NCBI GenBank assembly: GCA_001602645.1
Contig: LUYE01000016.1
Location: forward strand, 1 to 54,776
Source of the DNA: Methanosarcinales archaeon Methan_01
Lineage (GTDB): Archaea; Halobacteriota; Methanosarcinia; Methanotrichales; Methanotrichaceae
DNA length: 54,776 nt
Direction: 5' to 3'
The notes below the pieces were generated by a model, which was not told the DNA's origin, made no database searches, and saw nothing but the letters and a program-made list of their open reading frames with translations. A program made the position numbers and the translations under genes. How positions within the stretch are numbered: position 1 is the first letter of the stretch; each line of letters opens with the position of its first letter. Positions 14,674 through 23,470 of this stretch are shown here, one piece after another.

Positions 14674-15210
14674 TCACAGAAGGTAGTCTATCGACACCTC
14701 AGCCCCGTCCAGATCGTAGCCGATAACCTCCACCACCAGTGATCCCTCCTCCTCGACGACGGAGACTTCGAGCCCCTCCGAGGCGGTGACGGCCGACGGC
14801 GTCGCCTCTTTGGGGAGATAGAAGGCCAGATGGCACTCCTCCCACCAGCCGTCAGCCTCAAATTCGAGGGTCGTCACCCCATCTCGGATCGACGTCAGGG
14901 CGTCGCTCAGGGCGTAGAGCTCCCCGAGATCCTCGTCGTACTCGACCTCGGAGCCCGCGAGGAAGGCGAGGTCGTCGAGGCTATCGGCCTTCAGGTAGCC
15001 GACGATCAGGGCCCTTCCTCCATCGTCGATATATGCGTCCAGAAGGATGCTCCCAAAAGCCGATCCAGCCTCGCTGCCACCTCCGGCGACCGCCTCGTCT
15101 CGCCCCGAGGCCGGGGCGAGGGCGAGGAGGATCAAGAGGGCGATCAATGGGAACGATCCGCCGGCCGAGCCCCAGCGTCCGGGGCGGTCTCTGAGATCTC
15201 TTCCGATCAA
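14674..15210 (-). CDS. Secreted protein: free-standing copy of the extracytoplasmic sensor domain
   Basis: A 178-residue predicted secreted protein. Residues about 19-35 (FPLIALLILLALAPASG) form a signal-peptide core behind an Arg-rich start. Residues about 50-178 are clearly homologous to the sensor domain of the regulator at 16289-17326: both share a GY.K...LAFL.GS pattern, a YDE...LYA..ALT pattern, FYL, EGL and VVE..GYD in order. Here there is no membrane anchor and no HTH. The start is TTG at 15210, following GAGGGG. It is 12 bases after the upstream gene on the same strand, hence an operon of two. Confidence 0.75.
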   Translation of the reverse strand: MIGRDLRDRPGRWGSAGGSFPLIALLILLALAPASGRDEAVAGGGSEAGSAFGSILLDAYIDDGGRALIVGYLKADSLDDLAFLAGSEVEYDEDLGELYALSDALTSIRDGVTTLEFEADGWWEECHLAFYLPKEATPSAVTASEGLEVSVVEEEGSLVVEVIGYDLDGAEVSIDYLL

Positions 15211-15222
15211 CTCGAAGACCCC

Positions 15223-16164
15223 TCAGATCCCTAAGGCCGGGGGAAGAGGCCGATCCAAACCCCCTCCAACCATGGCCGGGCCGCATCCCCATCCAGGCCC
15301 TCCGAAGAGCCCCGGGGAGGAGGGAGAGAGGCCCAGGTCCAGGAGGATCAGATCGAGGGGGTCTGGCCGCCGGGGGCCGAGGTGAGAGAACGGTCCGCCG
15401 ACCGAGCTCCGGGCTGCTGCGACCGGGTCCCACCCGGGGCCTCCGGGTGCCAGCCCCCATCCGGAGGTAATGCCCGCCAGGGGGCATCCCTCCATCCCTA
15501 CCCCTGCACCGATGGAGGGGTCCAGGATGACGGCGTAGCTTCCGGCATAGGGGCCGCTGAAGACCAGGAGGCTTCCGACGCTGATCTCCGATCCGTTCTG
15601 CTGGAGGATCTCGACGGTGAGCTTGCCCACCATCTCCGGCCCCGACCCGGGGGAGGGGATCGCCCCCCATCCCCCCGCCGGCACCATCAGGTCCGCCTCC
15701 AGGGTGGTCGTCCCCCCCTCCAAGGTGACGTTGAGGCGGTCGAGGAGGTAGGGGGCCCGGCCGAGGCGGAGGTTCCCCCGGTAGCTGTAGGCCCCGTCCT
15801 CCCCCTCGATCTCCTCCTTGATCTCTCCCAGGGTCCGGTTCTCTCCCAGGAGCCTCCGGACCCGGGATGGGTCGACGCCTCTCACCCTTTCGACCTGCAG
15901 CCTCACAGGCAGAGCCTCGTCTTCAGAACTGAAGGCAAACCCCACCTCCGAGATGAAGATCGATATCAGTATCCCAGGTCCGTCCCCGTGGCAGCCGATC
16001 CCGGCGATCTGGTATGCTACGGGACAAGGGCCCCCCTCCCTCAGCCCGTCCCCGATGCATGCCGGGGCGTCGAATGTCAGGGGCTCTCCCGCTCCAATAA
16101 CGCCCCCTAGGATCAGGGCCGCCACTCCCAGCCAGAGGCCCCTCCGGATCGGATGGCCCGTCAA
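15223..16164 (-). CDS. Secreted protein of unknown function
   Basis: A 313-residue protein that I do not recognise. Residues 1-25 are a signal peptide (RRGLWLGVAALILGGVIGAG). Cysteines in PACIGDG, GPCPVAY and IGCHGDG near the mature N-terminus may form disulfides or bind metal. The middle part is rich in beta strands (GKLTVEILQQNGSEISV). The last 100 residues are Gly/Pro-rich with little structure and may be a wall-spanning or degenerate tail. The TTG start at 16164 has GAGGTGATGAC directly upstream. It precedes the free sensor-domain gene in the same operon. Confidence 0.65.
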   Translation of the reverse strand: MTGHPIRRGLWLGVAALILGGVIGAGEPLTFDAPACIGDGLREGGPCPVAYQIAGIGCHGDGPGILISIFISEVGFAFSSEDEALPVRLQVERVRGVDPSRVRRLLGENRTLGEIKEEIEGEDGAYSYRGNLRLGRAPYLLDRLNVTLEGGTTTLEADLMVPAGGWGAIPSPGSGPEMVGKLTVEILQQNGSEISVGSLLVFSGPYAGSYAVILDPSIGAGVGMEGCPLAGITSGWGLAPGGPGWDPVAAARSSVGGPFSHLGPRRPDPLDLILLDLGLSPSSPGLFGGPGWGCGPAMVGGGLDRPLPPALGI

Positions 16165-16288
16165 GTCATCACCTCTTCCAGACTCTCAAAACCTCGCCGT
16201 CCCCGATTTGGGGGTACTTCTGACCCGGCCACCCCGCAGAATTGGGGGCGTCCGGCAGGGATATCCGACCACCATGCCTCCACCGCCG

Positions 16289-17326
16289 TCATCTCCCCCC
16301 CCAGTTTAGCCGCTCGGAGAGCTCGATGACGTTGGTCCTTCCCCGTTCCTTCTTCGTCACGATATTTCTCCTCTCAAGAGAGACTATGATCCCGGTTAGG
16401 GAGGATTTGGGGATCCCCGTCTCGTACCTGATATCCGCCTGAGTCATCTTCCCCTCGTGCTTTATGAGAGCCTCCAAGACCGACCTTTCCCTCTCGGTGA
16501 GGGTATCCATCACCGCCACCATCTCCGCCGAGATCGAGGCGGCGATGGTGGCCTCGGGGGCAGGAAAGGCTGCCTCGACGGGGCCCGAAGATTGGAGGGG
16601 GGCTTCCTCCGAAACCATCTGATCTTGCTCATCCTCGGCCTCCGGGAGCCCGAAGACCGGGGCCGCCGTCTCGGATTCAAAAGCCACCTCATCCGCTGGA
16701 GGCGAGGCTGCCTCCTTACGCCCTCGGACCATGACCGCGGCGACGATCAAGAGGGCGACGAGGAGGCCCCCCCCCAGGAGGAGGGAGAGGCTGGAGGGTT
16801 TCGGCGTCGGGAGGGCCGCAGCCTCTGCTTCGGCGCCTGAGACCGGCTGGCGGTACATGACGGCGGCCCCGGGATTCGTCACGTCGTAGCCGTGGAACTC
16901 CACCACAAAGGAGTCGCTAGAGGAGGAGACGAGGTAGTCGAGCCCCTCGGTCCCGGAGATGTTGGTGAGCTGGACGTTCTCTGATAGATAGAAGGTGACG
17001 TGATACTCGCCGTAGCTCCCTTCAGCGGATAGCCGGATCTCCCAGTCGTCCCCGCTCTTTTTGGTGAGGGCGTTGGTCACCGCGTAGAGCTGGAGGGCGC
17101 CCTCGTCGTACTGGTAATCGGAGCCGTTGAGAAAGGCGAGGCCAGCGATGCTCTTCGCATATCCGGTGACCAGTGCCTTCCCGGCGTCGTCGGCATATAT
17201 GTCCAGGACGAGACCCCCCACTTCGTCGATCTCGGCCCCTGATGCGAGAAAGGCCGGGCTGATAAGGACTGCGGCGACTGCGAAGAGGGTCAGAGTCCAT
17301 CGGCAGAGGCTGTACTTCTCCGTCAT
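16289..17326 (-). CDS. Membrane-anchored winged-helix regulator with extracytoplasmic sensor domain
   Basis: A 345-residue one-component signalling protein. Residues 1-31 are a signal peptide or first helix, and about 32-165 are an outside beta-rich domain. Residues about 180-201 are a membrane helix (LLLGGGLLVALLIVAAVMV), followed by an acidic Ala/Pro-rich cytoplasmic linker. Residues about 275-340 are a winged HTH with LTERERSVLEALIKHEGKMT and GIPKSSLTGIIVSLERR. The order outside sensor, helix, inside DNA-binding domain resembles the DUF7345/DUF7343-type archaeal regulators. ATG 17326 is chosen because GAAGGAGATCG precedes it; the open frame extends further but without signal-peptide logic. 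It is divergent from the surface protein at 17507. Confidence 0.8.
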   Translation of the reverse strand: MTEKYSLCRWTLTLFAVAAVLISPAFLASGAEIDEVGGLVLDIYADDAGKALVTGYAKSIAGLAFLNGSDYQYDEGALQLYAVTNALTKKSGDDWEIRLSAEGSYGEYHVTFYLSENVQLTNISGTEGLDYLVSSSSDSFVVEFHGYDVTNPGAAVMYRQPVSGAEAEAAALPTPKPSSLSLLLGGGLLVALLIVAAVMVRGRKEAASPPADEVAFESETAAPVFGLPEAEDEQDQMVSEEAPLQSSGPVEAAFPAPEATIAASISAEMVAVMDTLTERERSVLEALIKHEGKMTQADIRYETGIPKSSLTGIIVSLERRNIVTKKERGRTNVIELSERLNWGGR

Positions 17327-17364
17327 CGATCTCCTTCGGCAACCCCGGTTCTGACCGGAGGTTG

Positions 17365-17400
17365 GTGGTCGAATATATTTAAGATTTGGGCATATAGAAT
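17365..17400. promoter_or_regulatory. Divergent promoter between the anchored regulator and the surface protein
   Basis: An AT-rich island (GAATATATTTAAGATTTG, about 17372-17389, then GCATATAG) in a 180-base intergenic gap. Read on the minus strand, CTTAAATATATTC is a good TATA box about 45-55 bases before the regulator start at 17326. On the plus strand GCATATAGAATT could serve the 17507 gene with a longer leader. The regulator's own operator may be here, but I see no clear inverted repeat. Confidence 0.5.
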
Positions 17401-17506
17401 TCAATGAAAAGGGCACCCCAGGCGATGATGAGACGCCCGGGATGCGAGACGAACCTCGGCCCTCCTCATAGACGCATAATTGATAAACGATCAGGTTCAA
17501 CTAGAG

Positions 17507-18760
17507 ATGCTCTACATGACCGGGAAGTATTATCGCATCGGCATGGGCCTGGGGCTGTTCCTCTCGCAGGTCTTCCTCCTCCTGATGACCTCCGCCTTCA
17601 TCCCAGGGGCGGCAGGCCTAGAGGCGAACGAGTACGGCGAGATCGACGATACCCCAGAAGCCCCGAATCCTGCGACCTCCGAAGAGGCGGCGAGCCCTGC
17701 CGTCTCCGAGGGCCCAGAAGCCGATGAGGAGGCCTCGGAGCCGACGGTTCCGTTGGAGGAGCCGAGATCATCTCCCGAGGCGGATGGCTCCGGGGAGGGT
17801 TTGGCGGCCGAGATCGGCTCGTTGGAGACTAACGAGACGACCTCCCCGGAGGAAGAGGCGGCAGAGCCGACGATGGCCGAGGCGATCGTATACGTCTTCA
17901 ACCGAGACGACGACACCCTGAGCATATCCCTCTTCATAGACTCGGAGCTGGCGGGTACCGAGGAGGTCTCCAAGGATAAGGAGAAGAAGTTCGGGAGCTA
18001 TGAGCTCGAGGCCGGATCCCACGACTTCAGGATCAGCTGGTGGGACGATGACACCAAGATGACCTACCAGGAAGATCTAGCAGCCTCGGTGGAGGGAACG
18101 ACGGCGGTCACCCTCTATGCGGCCGAGAACACGGAGCCGGAGGAGTTCGAGGTGACGGTGATGTTGAGGAACGACAACGACGAGGACCTGGAAGCCTACC
18201 TCTACATCGACGGCCTCTACGAGAAGATGAAGACCGCGAAGAAGACGAGCACCACCGACTTCGGCAAGTTCGACATGGAGGAGGGGACCCACGTCCTGGC
18301 GGTGAGGTGGCAGGACCCGGCGACCAAGATCGAGTACGAGAAGAGGAAGACCCTCAGGGTTGACGGAAAGGACGCCGTCACCTTCTACGCCCCGGCGGGG
18401 ATGGCCTTCGAAGGGGCAGAAGAGGCGAAACAGACGACCTCATCGAAGACTTCCAGCCCATCCTCCTCGGCTAAGGCCGAGACCTCATCCGAGGCGAAAG
18501 AGCCGTCGTCCCCGACGAAGGGCGGGGGCGAGGTGGGAGAAGCCTCCGCCAGCCCCGCGGTCGGCGATCAGAAGGAGAGATCGTCAGAATCCCGAGATGT
18601 TGGAGTTGGAGGGGCGGAGACGGTGGAGAAGGCAGATACAGCGATCGGCCGCGAGGCAGAGCCTCATGAAGCGGAAGAGTCGGATTCGTCGCGGGAGACG
18701 ATCCTGATATCCGCCCTCGGGGCGATCCTCGCCATCTACCTCCTATTCTTCAGGCGTTGA
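17507..18760 (+). CDS. Membrane-anchored surface protein with two tandem beta domains
   Basis: A 417-residue protein of unknown function. An N-terminal signal (GMGLGLFLSQVFLLLMTSAF) is followed by an acidic Glu/Ala/Ser/Pro-rich spacer (about 35-120). Two related beta domains of about 90 residues come next. The first runs from AIVYVFNRDDDTLSISLFID to AVTLYA, the second from VTVMLRNDNDEDLEAYLYID to AVTFYA. A second low-complexity Ser/Lys/Glu spacer leads to a C-terminal helix TILISALGAILAIYLLFFRR. ATG 17507 is favoured by AGGTT ten bases upstream; ATG 17516 is also possible. Its stop is 4 bases before the next gene, so the two are co-transcribed. Confidence 0.75.
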   Translation: MLYMTGKYYRIGMGLGLFLSQVFLLLMTSAFIPGAAGLEANEYGEIDDTPEAPNPATSEEAASPAVSEGPEADEEASEPTVPLEEPRSSPEADGSGEGLAAEIGSLETNETTSPEEEAAEPTMAEAIVYVFNRDDDTLSISLFIDSELAGTEEVSKDKEKKFGSYELEAGSHDFRISWWDDDTKMTYQEDLAASVEGTTAVTLYAAENTEPEEFEVTVMLRNDNDEDLEAYLYIDGLYEKMKTAKKTSTTDFGKFDMEEGTHVLAVRWQDPATKIEYEKRKTLRVDGKDAVTFYAPAGMAFEGAEEAKQTTSSKTSSPSSSAKAETSSEAKEPSSPTKGGGEVGEASASPAVGDQKERSSESRDVGVGGAETVEKADTAIGREAEPHEAEESDSSRETILISALGAILAIYLLFFRR

Positions 18761-18764
18761 TCCG

Positions 18765-20318
18765 ATGAGAGTTCTCCTGGCATATCTGCTCCTGACATCG
18801 ATGATCGGGACGGCGGTGGAGTGGGGGGACCGGGTCGAAGGGGAGCTCCGATGGGGAGAGACCCTCCAGCTCGGGGATTATTCCCTGGAGGCTGCGGACT
18901 TCACCCCCGAGGATAAATCGCCGCGGATGGTGATGCTGAACCTTCGGAAGGGTGGAGAGCTGATCGCCACGAGGCCCCTGAAGTCGGGAGAGAGCTTCAC
19001 CATCGACGACGAGGTGATGGTTGTAGCCGGCGATGTTATGATGATAGACTACCTCCTGGACGGGTCGGCGGAGCCGAAGGCATCGGTCTCCCTCCTCCTC
19101 CGAGCGGTCCCCGACCTCCAGATCCGGGTCGTCTCGAAGGAGGATTCTTACCGGGGAGGCGACCGGGCGAAGGTCGAGGTCGAGGTCGAGAACGTCGGAA
19201 TGACGGAGGCGGAGGACGTGAAGCTGGAGGTGAACTTCGACCCCGAGATCGCAGGAGAGAGGTTTTCGATATCGAACCTCGCCCCGGGCGATGTCTGGGA
19301 CGAGGACCCTTCAACCCGGAAGGTCGATCCCCTGGAGGTGAACTTCAGGGTCCCGTCGGTGGCGGGGCCCCAGGTGGTCCGGGTCGAGGCTCGGGCCCGG
19401 TACCTCGACACCGAGGGAGGGGTTCACGAGTCGGTGGGCGGGACGAGCTTCGACCTCTTCGGCCCCCTCAGGGTCTTCAAGTATGCGGATGACGAGATCA
19501 GGTTCGGCGAGGAGAGCTACGTCCACCTCTCCGTCAGCAACGGCGGTGACAGGAGCCTGGTGGTCGCCCTAACCGACTCGGCGGGTCGAGATTTTAAGAC
19601 GGATTCCTCCCTGGAATGGAAGATGACGATACCGCCGGGGGAGAGCAGAACCGCCAGCTACACCGTCGATGCTAAGAAGCCTGGGGATGGGCAGACCCTC
19701 CCGCCCGCCGAGGCCACCTACTCCGTCGACGGCACTATTTATAAGGTCAAGTCGTCGAGCCCCGTCGTCGATGTCATCGGACCTCTGGTGGAGGTGGCCA
19801 AAGGTGCATCCTCCGCCAGAGTCAGGCCGGGGGAGACGGTGACGGTGACGGTGACCGCAAAGAACGTCGGGAACCGGAGGACGAAAGCCTCTCTGAAGGA
19901 GACCGTCCCGGCATGGGCGACCCTCGTCGCGGGGGAGACGGAGATCAACCCTCTCCTCTTGCCAGGGGAGGAGGCGGCGATCGTCTACACCATATCCTGC
20001 CGGGATCCGGGTAGCTACGAGATCCCGGCGACGGCCGTCTGTTACCGGGACGACCGAGGAACCGCCTGCACCCTGGAATCCTCGCAGCTGAGGATAGCCG
20101 TAGAGGAGGAGGAAGAGGAAGCTCCGACCGACGATGGCGGTATGGGGGCCGCCCCGGAGGAAGCCCCCATCCCTTCCGGTCAGGTCGAGGGGACAGCATA
20201 TAAAGGCGATATCAGCAGGGCCGGCGGCCGGGACGAAGTCGCTCGCGATCCTCGGATCTTCTGGGCCCTGCCGGCTCTGATCCTGATCATATTCATCGCC
20301 TTCGATCGCTACCTATGA
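18765..20318 (+). CDS. Membrane-anchored S-layer-type protein with CARDB/NEW3-like domains
   Basis: A 517-residue protein with a signal peptide at 1-18, a small N-terminal beta domain, then repeated immunoglobulin-like domains. KVEVEVENVGMTEAEDVKLE and VTVTVTAKNVGNRRTKASLK are the edge strands typical of CARDB/NEW3-like modules in archaeal surface proteins (COG1361 group). A Glu-rich spacer (about 450-480) precedes the C-terminal membrane helix FWALPALILIIFIAFDRYL, so the protein faces outwards on the cell membrane. It probably takes part in envelope architecture or binds a partner; no enzyme motif is present. It directly follows the tandem-domain surface protein. Confidence 0.78.
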   Translation: MRVLLAYLLLTSMIGTAVEWGDRVEGELRWGETLQLGDYSLEAADFTPEDKSPRMVMLNLRKGGELIATRPLKSGESFTIDDEVMVVAGDVMMIDYLLDGSAEPKASVSLLLRAVPDLQIRVVSKEDSYRGGDRAKVEVEVENVGMTEAEDVKLEVNFDPEIAGERFSISNLAPGDVWDEDPSTRKVDPLEVNFRVPSVAGPQVVRVEARARYLDTEGGVHESVGGTSFDLFGPLRVFKYADDEIRFGEESYVHLSVSNGGDRSLVVALTDSAGRDFKTDSSLEWKMTIPPGESRTASYTVDAKKPGDGQTLPPAEATYSVDGTIYKVKSSSPVVDVIGPLVEVAKGASSARVRPGETVTVTVTAKNVGNRRTKASLKETVPAWATLVAGETEINPLLLPGEEAAIVYTISCRDPGSYEIPATAVCYRDDRGTACTLESSQLRIAVEEEEEEAPTDDGGMGAAPEEAPIPSGQVEGTAYKGDISRAGGRDEVARDPRIFWALPALILIIFIAFDRYL

Positions 20319-20344
20319 AATTAAATTAAAATGATTTGATTTAA

Positions 20345-21544
20345 ATGAGACCCGACGATCCTCGCCACTTTCGGGCAGCCTCCTCAAGCCGCCCCGCCAT
20401 CGCCGCCGCCCTCCTGGGGGGGGCTCTGGTGGTCCTGATGCTCCAGCCCGCCCTCGGCCAGGCGCCGGACCTCTCGTGGGAGAAGTCCTTCGGCGGACCG
20501 GGGGACGAAAGGGGGATCTCCCTCCTGGAGACGGCCGACTCCAGCCTGGCGGTCGTCGGCTACACCTCCTCCAAAGGAGACGGTGGCAGGGACCTCTGGC
20601 TGATCAAGACCGATTCGGAGGGGGAGCTGGAGTGGGATCGGGCGATCGGAGGCCCCGGCGACGAGGAGGGGTGGTCCCTCCTGGGGACGGAGGACGGATA
20701 TGTCATCGCTGGGGTCTCGGGCTCCGGGGAGGCCGGCGGAAAGGACCTCCTCCTCGTCAAGACCTACTCCGACGGCTACGAGAGGTGGACGAAGACCTTC
20801 GGAGGTCCGGGCGACGACTGGGGGGTCGCCGCGGTGAAGACGGAGGCGGGATACGTCGTCGCCGGGTCCACCACCTCCCGAGGCTCCGGAGGCTCTGACG
20901 GCTGGATCCTTCTGGTCGACCCCGACGGAAACCTGGTGTGGGAGGTCGCCATCGGCGGCTCGAAGAACGACGGATTTTCGTCGATCGTGGAGGTGGAAGA
21001 CGGCTACGTCGCCGTTGGGACCACCGAGTCCTACGGGGCGGGAGGGAGGGACGTCTGGCTAGTCAAGGCCGACGGCGAGGGGAAGAGGGTATGGGAGAAG
21101 ACCTTCGGGAAGGACGGCGACGAGAGGGGGAACTCCGTCCTGAAGATGGCGGACGGCTATATCATCGTCGGGACATCGTCCGCCGATGCCCCGGGTGGAA
21201 GGGACCTCCTCCTCCTCAAAACCGACCTGGAGGGCGAGAAGGTCTGGGAGGAGACGATCGGGGGCCCCGGCGAAGACGGCGGCTGGCAGGCCCTGGTGGA
21301 TGAGGACGGCGGCATCGTCGTCGTCGGCTACACCAGGGGGGCTGGCGACGAGGATATCTGGCTCCTGAAGGTCAGCTCCGTCGGCGAAAAGCTCTGGGAT
21401 GACGCCTTCGGGGGGGAGGGCTTCGACCTCGGAAGGTCGATCGTCCCGACGAAGGACGGGGGATGGGCGATGACCGGCTGGACGGAATCCGGGGGCCCGA
21501 GGGGCCAGGACCTCTGGCTCGGAAAGGTCGAGAGGGGAGGATGA
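20345..21544 (+). CDS. Secreted seven-repeat beta-propeller protein
   Basis: A 399-residue exported protein. A long basic N-terminus and hydrophobic core (AAALLGGALVVLMLQPALG) form the signal. Seven repeats of about 50 residues follow, each reading W.K.FGG.GDD.G.S....DGY...G.T.S.G.GG.D.WL.K.D..G, starting near residues 46, 98, 149, 200, 251, 302 and 352. Seven such units make one closed propeller. No catalytic or anchor motif is seen, so binding or scaffolding is the likely role. An AT-rich block reaches to the ATG, so the message may be leaderless. Its stop overlaps the methyltransferase start (ATGA). Confidence 0.8.
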   Translation: MRPDDPRHFRAASSSRPAIAAALLGGALVVLMLQPALGQAPDLSWEKSFGGPGDERGISLLETADSSLAVVGYTSSKGDGGRDLWLIKTDSEGELEWDRAIGGPGDEEGWSLLGTEDGYVIAGVSGSGEAGGKDLLLVKTYSDGYERWTKTFGGPGDDWGVAAVKTEAGYVVAGSTTSRGSGGSDGWILLVDPDGNLVWEVAIGGSKNDGFSSIVEVEDGYVAVGTTESYGAGGRDVWLVKADGEGKRVWEKTFGKDGDERGNSVLKMADGYIIVGTSSADAPGGRDLLLLKTDLEGEKVWEETIGGPGEDGGWQALVDEDGGIVVVGYTRGAGDEDIWLLKVSSVGEKLWDDAFGGEGFDLGRSIVPTKDGGWAMTGWTESGGPRGQDLWLGKVERGG

Positions 21545-22221
21545 TGGACGGTCCCCGAAGGGGGGCCAGGGCCCCCAGCAGGCCCGCCGGGGGCCTTGGT
21601 GAAGGCACCGAAGGGGTCTATCCCCCCGCCGAGGACACCCACCTCCTCCTCGCCGCCTCCCTGAAGGAGGTGGCCCCCGAGGATGCCGTCCTGGAGATCG
21701 GGTGCGGCAGCGGCATAATATCGAAGGCCCTCCGCCACCGGGCCCGGTGGGTCGTCGCCACCGACGTCAACCCCGCCGCCTTGCGTCGCCTCCGGCGGGA
21801 GGGAGTCGAGGTCCTCCGGGCCGACCTCTTCGCCGGGATCCGGGGGAGGTTCGACCTCGTCCTCTTCAACCCACCGTACCTGCCCACCGAGGAGGACGAG
21901 GTCCTGGCGGGGTGGATCAACTTCGCCTTCGACGGCGGAAAGACGGGCAGAGAGACGATAGGCCGGTTCCTGGAGGGGCTGAGAGATCGCTTGGTGCCGG
22001 AGAGGGGGCGCGCCCTCCTAGTCGTCTCAAGCCTCAGCGGCCCCGATGAGGTCGAGGAGAAAGCGCGATCTTTGGGGCTTACGGTCGAGGTGGTCGCTCG
22101 CGAGAGGTGGTTCTTCGAGGAGCTTTTGGTCGTGAGGCTCTCCCCCACCCCGTCGGCTGGGGCTGGGGGCTGCCCGGGACGGGGCTTTGCCACTGGCCGA
22201 GATCTTCGCGAACCAATTTAG
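21541..22221 (+). CDS. HemK2/Mtq2-like protein-glutamine N5-methyltransferase
   Basis: A 226-residue SAM-dependent methyltransferase of the archaeal HemK2/Mtq2 type, which methylates the Gln of the GGQ loop in release factor aRF1. The SAM site is VLEIGCGSGIISKAL, the acidic residue ends strand 2 in VVATDVNP, and the diagnostic catalytic motif is FNPPYLPT. The first 25 residues are low-complexity Gly/Ala/Pro/Arg, and the last 24 (Gly-rich) extend beyond the usual end. The ATG at 21541 overlaps the stop of the propeller gene; the internal ATG at 21544 is equivalent. Coupling to a surface-protein gene is unusual. Confidence 0.82.
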   Translation: MMDGPRRGARAPSRPAGGLGEGTEGVYPPAEDTHLLLAASLKEVAPEDAVLEIGCGSGIISKALRHRARWVVATDVNPAALRRLRREGVEVLRADLFAGIRGRFDLVLFNPPYLPTEEDEVLAGWINFAFDGGKTGRETIGRFLEGLRDRLVPERGRALLVVSSLSGPDEVEEKARSLGLTVEVVARERWFFEELLVVRLSPTPSAGAGGCPGRGFATGRDLREPI

Positions 22222-22483: not shown

Positions 22484-22888
22484 ATGATGAAGATCAGAGT
22501 CGTCAGTTCGAAGAAGGAGATAGACCAGCTCAACCGGAATGAACAGATGATCCACCTGGCCTTTAGAGCGTCCAACACCGACATATTCAGGCTCCTCCAG
22601 GCCTGTCCCAGGCTGAGAGCGATCCAGGTCCCATCCTCCTACTACAAGACCATGTCCCACGCGGGCCAGATGTTCTTGGAGATGCAGGGGATAGAGATCG
22701 TCGAGGGGGACGTCTGGGGCCACCGGAAGGACATAGACGAATACTACACCGTAGACGACAAGGTGATAGAGAGGATAAACAGCCTCCAATCCGAGGGGAT
22801 GAACCACGACGAGATCGCCAGCAAAGTCTCGAGGGAGTCGAAGCTATCGCCGGCCATGGTCAAGTACATGATAAAACAGGCGACCTGA
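22484..22888 (+). CDS. DUF1699 family protein, first copy
   Basis: A 134-residue protein of the Methanosarcinales-restricted DUF1699 family (function unknown). It starts MMKIRVVSSKKEIDQL. The conserved block is RLRAIQVPSSYYKTM and IEIVEGDVWGHRKDIDEYY. The C-terminal 40 residues (INSLQSEGMNHDEIASKVSR) look like a helix-turn-helix with the pattern of a resolvase-type recognition helix, so nucleic-acid binding is plausible. It is about 65 percent identical by eye to the second copy 177 bases downstream. Confidence 0.85.
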   Translation: MMKIRVVSSKKEIDQLNRNEQMIHLAFRASNTDIFRLLQACPRLRAIQVPSSYYKTMSHAGQMFLEMQGIEIVEGDVWGHRKDIDEYYTVDDKVIERINSLQSEGMNHDEIASKVSRESKLSPAMVKYMIKQAT

Positions 22889-23065: not shown

Positions 23066-23470
23066 ATGATAAAGATCAGGATCGTCAGTTCAAAAGATGA
23101 TATAAACGACCTCACGAGGAGCGATCATACAGTTCATCTGGCCTACAGGGCCACCAGCACCGACATGTTCAGGCTCCTCCAGTACAGTCCCCGGCTCCGC
23201 GCCGTCCAGGTCCCGCCCTCGTACTACAGGAATATGCCCAACACCGCCCGGGCCTTCCTGGAGACTCAGGGGGTGGAGATCATCGAGGGAGACGTCTGGG
23301 GTCATCGAAAGGACATCGACGAGTACTTCGTCGTCGACGACGAGATGATAGGGAGGATAACAGACCTCCAGTCAGGCGGCCTGAAAGTCGAAGAGATCTC
23401 ATCGAGGATATGCTGGGAGTCGAAGCTATCGCCGGCAATGGTCAACTACATCATCAAGCAGAGGACTTGA
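23066..23470 (+). CDS. DUF1699 family protein, second copy
   Basis: A 134-residue paralogue of the preceding gene, exactly the same length and collinear throughout. It starts MIKIRIVSSKDDINDL and contains RLRAVQVPPSYYRNM and EGDVWGHRKDIDEYF. Differences cluster in the N-terminal helix and the putative HTH (GLKVEEISSRICWES versus GMNHDEIASKVSRES), suggesting that specificity has diverged. GGAGGG lies upstream of the ATG. No clear TATA box was found in the 177-base gap, so it may be read from the first promoter. Confidence 0.85.
   Translation: MIKIRIVSSKDDINDLTRSDHTVHLAYRATSTDMFRLLQYSPRLRAVQVPPSYYRNMPNTARAFLETQGVEIIEGDVWGHRKDIDEYFVVDDEMIGRITDLQSGGLKVEEISSRICWESKLSPAMVNYIIKQRT

Follow-up and report, generated by a model that had tools for sequence, protein, structure and literature searches.

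Gene content and predicted folds of the island

The stretch of DNA analysed, referred to below as the window, comprises 54,776 nucleotides (contig LUYE01000016.1 of assembly GCA_001602645.1, Methanosarcinales archaeon Methan_01, family Methanotrichaceae); it lies in contig 71 of a 2.6-Mb genome belonging to the genus Methanocrinis (g1). It contains an island of six open reading frames (ORFs), three on the minus strand (named here ECTO, X and REG) and three on the plus strand (P17, P18 and P20). A preliminary description of this DNA had recognized five genes for exported proteins around one membrane regulator, and this was borne out by the ORF list, the hydropathy profiles and the protein-level relatives. 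The genes were named correctly, but the span given for them (15223-21544) omits at its start the gene at 14674. The island genes are real: each of them has protein-level relatives in other species and their order is the same within Methanocrinis.

REG (16289..17326, minus strand, 345 aa) is predicted to be a one-component transmembrane regulator; its ORF is open to 17500, and the likely start is 17326, not 17500. In the AlphaFold2 model, a confident beta sandwich comes first (residues ~36-160; predicted local distance difference test, pLDDT, near 97); a helix spans 182-201, and a linker of low confidence leads to a winged helix, again confident, at 267-336. The ectodomain (16832..17230, residues 33-165, pLDDT ~97) precedes the one internal membrane segment detected by hydropathy (16718..16801, residues ~176-203). 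The winged helix (16313..16528, residues 267-338), which would be cytoplasmic, is recognized both in the model and by its match to DUF7343 (PF24034, E 5e-14 to 6.6e-14; 51.9 bits vs a Pfam cut-off of 27.6). The alignment A5 combines 61 of 71 REG rows (70 and the window) with 9 of 19 ECTO rows (18 and the window); PF24034 was matched by 61 of its 70 members, the other nine being ECTO proteins, which have no winged helix.

No Pfam family was matched by the REG ectodomain in A5. Its best structural match was 8agb_E (Z 11.7, root-mean-square deviation (rmsd) 3.5, 133 aligned residues), followed by 7oci_A (Z 11.6, rmsd 3.1 over 130 residues); the top Foldseek match, 6c26_1 (E 9e-5, 9% identity), is the same protein as the structural best. 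These chains are taken here to be the second lumenal domain of ribophorin I/Ost1, a subunit of oligosaccharyltransferase (OST). A link to ribophorin I at the sequence level was rejected: a sequence search of the PDB with the ectodomain gave seven weak matches, none of them to OST, and PF04597 (ribophorin I) was found at E<=1 in 0 of 21 relative genomes and is absent among the 25 families listed for A5. The relation is one of predicted fold resemblance, and not of demonstrated family membership.

X (15223..16164, minus strand) encodes an exported protein whose core (residues ~65-217) is predicted to form an eight-strand calycin-like barrel with a helical-hairpin insert, beside a Gly-rich low-confidence tail. 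No Pfam family was found for it. Its best structural matches, with Z 9-10, are small barrels (e.g. 7n34, Z 10.2, rmsd 4.0, 102 aligned residues), and because Foldseek returned nothing for the X model at E<=0.001, the claim is limited to a calycin-like barrel. ECTO (14674..15210, minus strand, 178 aa), located 12 bp from X, combines a signal peptide with a domain like that of the REG ectodomain. Positions 14683-15099 encode a segment 37% identical to REG residues 81-216, making the two genes paralogues, a relationship missed in the preliminary description; ECTO is, as far as its sequence tells, a secreted, unanchored copy of the REG outer domain. Twenty ECTO-type rows were gathered, the window's included (window and loci L051-L110). 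In a tree of 70 rows, the nine ECTO rows lie apart from REG and require 2 changes vs a shuffled mean of 8.7; they may have a single origin.

On the plus strand, P17 (17507..18760; likely start 17507, with an ORF variant at 17480) encodes a signal peptide, an acidic linker, two tandem ~75-aa beta-type repeats, a Ser/Glu linker and a C-terminal membrane anchor, and has no Pfam family. P18 (18765..20318), which follows P17 after 4 bp, carries CARDB (42.3 bits vs a Pfam cut-off of 22.7) and BatD/DUF11-type domains and a C-terminal membrane anchor. P20 (20345..21544) encodes a signal peptide and seven ~51-aa repeats, propeller-like; its similarity to NF047494 (SBBP lipoprotein LipL53 family; E 8e-13, 47.8 bits) is below the cut-off of 400. 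Hydropathy flagged N-terminal signal-like segments in REG and in four of the exported proteins (ECTO, X, P17 and P20), the segment of P18 being short and below the threshold used. C-terminal membrane segments were detected in P17 (396-417) and P18 (495-517) and not in X, ECTO or P20, and acidic or low-complexity linkers are visible in P17 (D/E at 88 of 417 residues) and P18. Signal peptides, acidic linkers and, in some proteins, C-terminal helices had all been described before and are largely confirmed. The earlier remark that no enzyme is found among the named genes was also right by Pfam and NCBIfam; the gene next downstream (21463-22221) is a methyltransferase. Further along the window, 22484-22888 and 23066-23470 encode tandem similar proteins of 134 aa, whose order is kept across Methanocrinis.

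Distribution of the two modules

A scan of the genome contigs gave 74 loci, which were assigned to groups by record title and tree. REG was found in all 50 Methanotrichaceae genomes searched (in G047 as a fragment only). X is the same-strand neighbour of REG in 33 of 40 Methanotrichaceae loci (six without X, one without room for it); it likewise adjoins REG on the same strand in 24/26 loci titled Methanophagales/ANME-1 (anaerobic methanotrophic archaea) or grouping with those in the tree, and in 5/6 Methanoperedens-like loci, the remaining one being without room. Two DPANN loci gave a weak match, to the winged helix only. Most Methanothrix genomes have an operon NadE-REG-c6-X-ECTO, in which the first gene is presumably NadE and c6 encodes a small secreted protein built from repeats such as ENMTLAEIRELREKK. 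ECTO keeps its operon place across loci; the genome taken as M. harundinacea (G011, strain 6Ac) has no ECTO next to REG. In a sample of 392 genomes of the phylum, REG matched 82 at E<=1e-10; by a hand count of the listing, E was below 1e-90 in 45 of them (15 in family f1, 28 in f9, taken as ANME-1, and one each in f4 and f36), and the matches in f2 were to the winged-helix side only. For the alignments, the short REG of L078 was dropped from the 48 listed for A1 and the truncated ECTO of L105 from the 20 for A2, while A6 holds 58 of 66 X rows (65 and the window).

In the tree, ANME-1-type REG proteins form one clade (100/98) within a starred set that also holds Methanocrinis and other Methanotrichaceae. 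REG may have been transferred between the ANME-1-type and Methanotrichaceae lineages, the root being placed by midpoint only. In one genome (G015, L064), REG is present as three closely spaced paralogues, all on one strand.

P17 was found in 30 of the 50 family genomes, including all nine of Methanocrinis; in the 392-genome sample, 14 genomes match, 13 of them within the family. P17 adjoins REG in 9/9 Methanocrinis genomes (own included), with P18 behind P17, and P20 is in the cluster in eight, the contig of the ninth ending first. Among these genomes, the REG sequences and the P17 sequences have diverged to ~50-65% identity, and the two genes are still neighbours in all nine. Outside Methanocrinis, where P17 neighbourhoods were read in 14 of 21 positive genomes, P17 and P18 are adjacent at 14/14 loci, REG and P20 are never beside them, and a divergent small membrane protein (c8) stands next to P17 at all 14. 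P20 joins the cluster only in Methanocrinis.

The island is composed of two older modules, REG-X-ECTO (module A) and P17-P18 (module B), and one further gene, put together in Methanocrinis. A single lineage-specific assembly had been proposed for it, with homologues scattered singly in other genomes as the evidence that would speak against this. The order is indeed constant in Methanocrinis, but outside the genus there are two separate modules, located at a distance from each other or on different contigs; the genes are neither dispersed one by one nor held together as one unit. Because the order of the flanking housekeeping genes is kept as well, a constant order within the genus speaks only weakly for an assembly. 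In place of one assembly, we see two modules brought together in a single genus, for which we infer a function below.

REG and P17 are divergent, their likely starts lying 180 bp apart. In an alignment of the intergenic stretch (17327..17506) from nine Methanocrinis sequences, a TATA-like block on the REG side (~17367-17390) and an AT-rich block on the P17 side (~17470-17495) are both conserved. Upstream of P17 outside Methanocrinis (L092-L110), a conserved box TAGATAATCTTTTCG, with variants, lies between c8 and P17; it was not seen upstream of P17 in Methanocrinis.

MacB-type exporters and sheath genes

A permease, which is taken to be of the MacB type from its sequence, occurs in 10 of 72 REG loci (5/6 Methanoperedens-like, 2/26 ANME-1-type and 3/40 Methanotrichaceae) and not in the window; an ATPase and an adaptor were also found beside REG or REG-X. 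Contig 4 of the window's genome, without REG, carries the operon c6-X-X-ATPase-c27-permease (L190), which is present as well in the presumed M. harundinacea genome (L192), and c6, X, c27 and permease follow in that order in four more Methanocrinis genomes (L214-L217). The c6 genes (L060-L180; e.g. L193:7365-8117) encode ~19-residue repeats, most of them with an N-x-T sequon, and X has one copy of the motif. Upstream of c6, at about -184 to -80, are GAAC sites 30 bp apart, then GTTC sites (L190 = G000:C4, L192, L214-L218). The strict three-site GAAC pattern was found at the MacB operon in G000, G008, G009, G010 and G014 and upstream of c6-X-X genes in G012, and is kept only in part in the presumed M. 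harundinacea genome. This array was considered as a REG operator and rejected, as it belongs to the MacB operon.

The exported proteins had been suggested to be part of the sheath. In the presumed M. thermoacetophila genome (G046, strain PT), candidate sheath genes SH_a, SH_b and SH_c (L187) and an MspA-like protein (L186) were picked out from their map position and features, with PMC11576556 and PMC10470525 as guides; in the latter, MspA is Mthe_1069 and Mthe_0069 is a gas-vesicle gene. Neither the island proteins nor their family profiles gave a phmmer or hmmsearch match to SH_a, SH_b, SH_c or MspA at E<=1, and SH_b matches 13 places in the genome of the window, none of them on contig 71. 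For these two reasons the island is not considered as sheath by sequence, and the suggestion was abandoned.

In two genomes of one genus (G048 and G049; L200 and L193), SH_a-SH_c directly follow c6-X-ECTO; in G004 (L203, L090), SH_a comes after X-ECTO and one 192-aa gene, and a short SH_b relative lies two genes before REG. A regulatory link of the REG module to the envelope is possible because X-ECTO adjoins sheath genes in these two genera; the adjacency was noted post hoc in 2 of 11 genera, and with many sheath genes per genome it may be due to chance. Coupling of sheath and REG across the phylum sample was not supported: in f9, no sheath match was obtained for 25 of the genomes with full-length REG, in searches by sequence that miss divergent sheath proteins.

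Proposed envelope sensing and rival explanations

The REG module is probably a way to monitor the outer surface and not a building block of it. The proposal that REG is a one-component transmembrane envelope sensor with exported partners, acting on envelope genes, is given about an even chance. The module is established in its gene content, domain order, conservation and predicted folds; the topology of REG, its DNA binding, its ligand, the role of ECTO and the targets we infer as follows. The folded domain of REG outside the membrane would read the state of the cell envelope, and its single helix would pass the signal through a flexible acidic linker to the DUF7343 winged helix, which would bind DNA. 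X may be a co-encoded exported ligand-binding or adaptor protein, and ECTO, as a soluble copy of the sensor domain, might draw a shared partner away from REG and thereby set the REG threshold. The output would most likely be envelope genes, namely its own operon and the MacB-type exporters that carry X relatives; in Methanocrinis, the divergent genes for the surface proteins P17-P18-P20 are perhaps also REG targets.

Several observations weigh against this proposal. ECTO is absent from 5/9 Methanocrinis loci. When the REG-P17 stretch and the regions upstream of REG elsewhere were aligned, only promoter-like blocks and no operator emerged, and the conserved GAAC array is at the MacB operon, not at REG. 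Outside Methanocrinis, P17-P18 lives without REG nearby and has a conserved upstream box of its own. Among the f9 genomes with a sheath match, only 3/7 carry full-length REG.

It is possible, although rather unlikely, that the two modules are chance neighbours, module A controlling itself and a MacB-type exporter (in hydrophobic or peptide stress) and P17-P18-P20 having landed beside it. The association of REG-X with MacB in several lineages, the separate partner c8 and box of P17-P18 elsewhere, and the retention of neighbouring housekeeping genes are all consistent with it, whereas the divergent arrangement at 180 bp and the persistence of the neighbourhood in nine genomes, despite the divergence of REG and P17, argue for a connection. 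A single surface structure built from all five exported proteins, whether sheath or granule contact, and regulated by REG specifically, is quite improbable: the REG-P17 order in all Methanocrinis genomes, with P18 and P20 as far as contigs reach, and the two C-terminally anchored proteins with linkers would fit such a structure, but the modules are apart outside the genus, the X family is tied to REG and MacB cassettes, and no likeness exists to the inferred sheath proteins, relatives of which the genome has on other contigs.

The least probable explanation, for which only a very small chance is allowed, is that REG-X(-ECTO, -c6) is an N-glycosylation checkpoint, in which X and c6 would be sequon-bearing reporters and the outer domain of REG, descended from ribophorin I or of common ancestry with it, would read glycan presence and adjust envelope and exporter genes. 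It was kept, at low probability, because sequons are enriched in c6 and X. In c6 they number 3.05 per 100 residues vs 0.52 after shuffling; the helix-cap motif of X carries N-x-S/T in 39/39 Methanotrichaceae X (A3) and 43/58 X in A6; and N precedes the cap motif (at -2) in 98 of 107 c6 and X cases together (c6 59/67, X 39/40) vs 33/451 cases in the remaining ORFs (by subtraction). Ribophorin I/Ost1 is also the top fold match of the REG ectodomain, but a fold match shows no function and no sequence link joins the two, and the sequon is lost in most Methanoperedens-like and some ANME-1 X proteins while the cap motif mostly stays.

Among known systems, ArnR and ArnR1 of Sulfolobus are membrane-bound one-component regulators of surface structures, the helix-turn-helix (HTH) domain of ArnR being N-terminal. 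REG likewise joins a putative DNA-binding HTH-type domain to a membrane segment in one chain, but carries its winged helix at the C-terminus (267-338 of 345) and a large folded domain ahead of the membrane helix, and is encoded together with exported partners. Bacterial BceRS-BceAB links membrane sensing to an exporter; REG may be similarly linked genetically to an FtsX/MacB-type ATP-binding cassette transporter, but is one-component, without a kinase, and the exporter in its own genome is on another contig. In Ost1, the second lumenal domain stands before the membrane helix. The REG ectodomain resembles it in fold and in this position, but with 9-15% identity and no Pfam match, and REG has a winged helix where Ost1 has its cytosolic part; we know of no evidence that REG belongs to oligosaccharyltransferase. 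Archaeal SH proteins and MspA are exported in the same organisms, and in two other genera SH genes are neighbours of X-ECTO, but they have no sequence similarity to the island proteins. The DNA-binding domain of REG belongs with the DUF7343 proteins, whereas no Pfam family was found for the ectodomain, X and ECTO. ArnR and ArnR1 are named in PMC13286277; CsmR was checked as a relative of REG and is classed there as an Lrp/AsnC-type regulator. A literature search found nothing on DUF7343 or the island genes, which does not prove that nothing has been published on them.

Both Methanothrix-type archaea and ANME-1 have a major part in the biological production and removal of methane. To our knowledge, it is not known by what means these archaea sense the state of their unusual envelope (sheath, S-layer). 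REG, present in every Methanotrichaceae genome searched and in many ANME-1-type genomes with an exported partner, offers a concrete handle on envelope sensing. Ost1 was previously reported (PMC11417166) from eukaryotes, TACK and Asgard archaea; if the homology is true, an Ost1-like fold outside that range would bear on the origin of the eukaryotic subunit.

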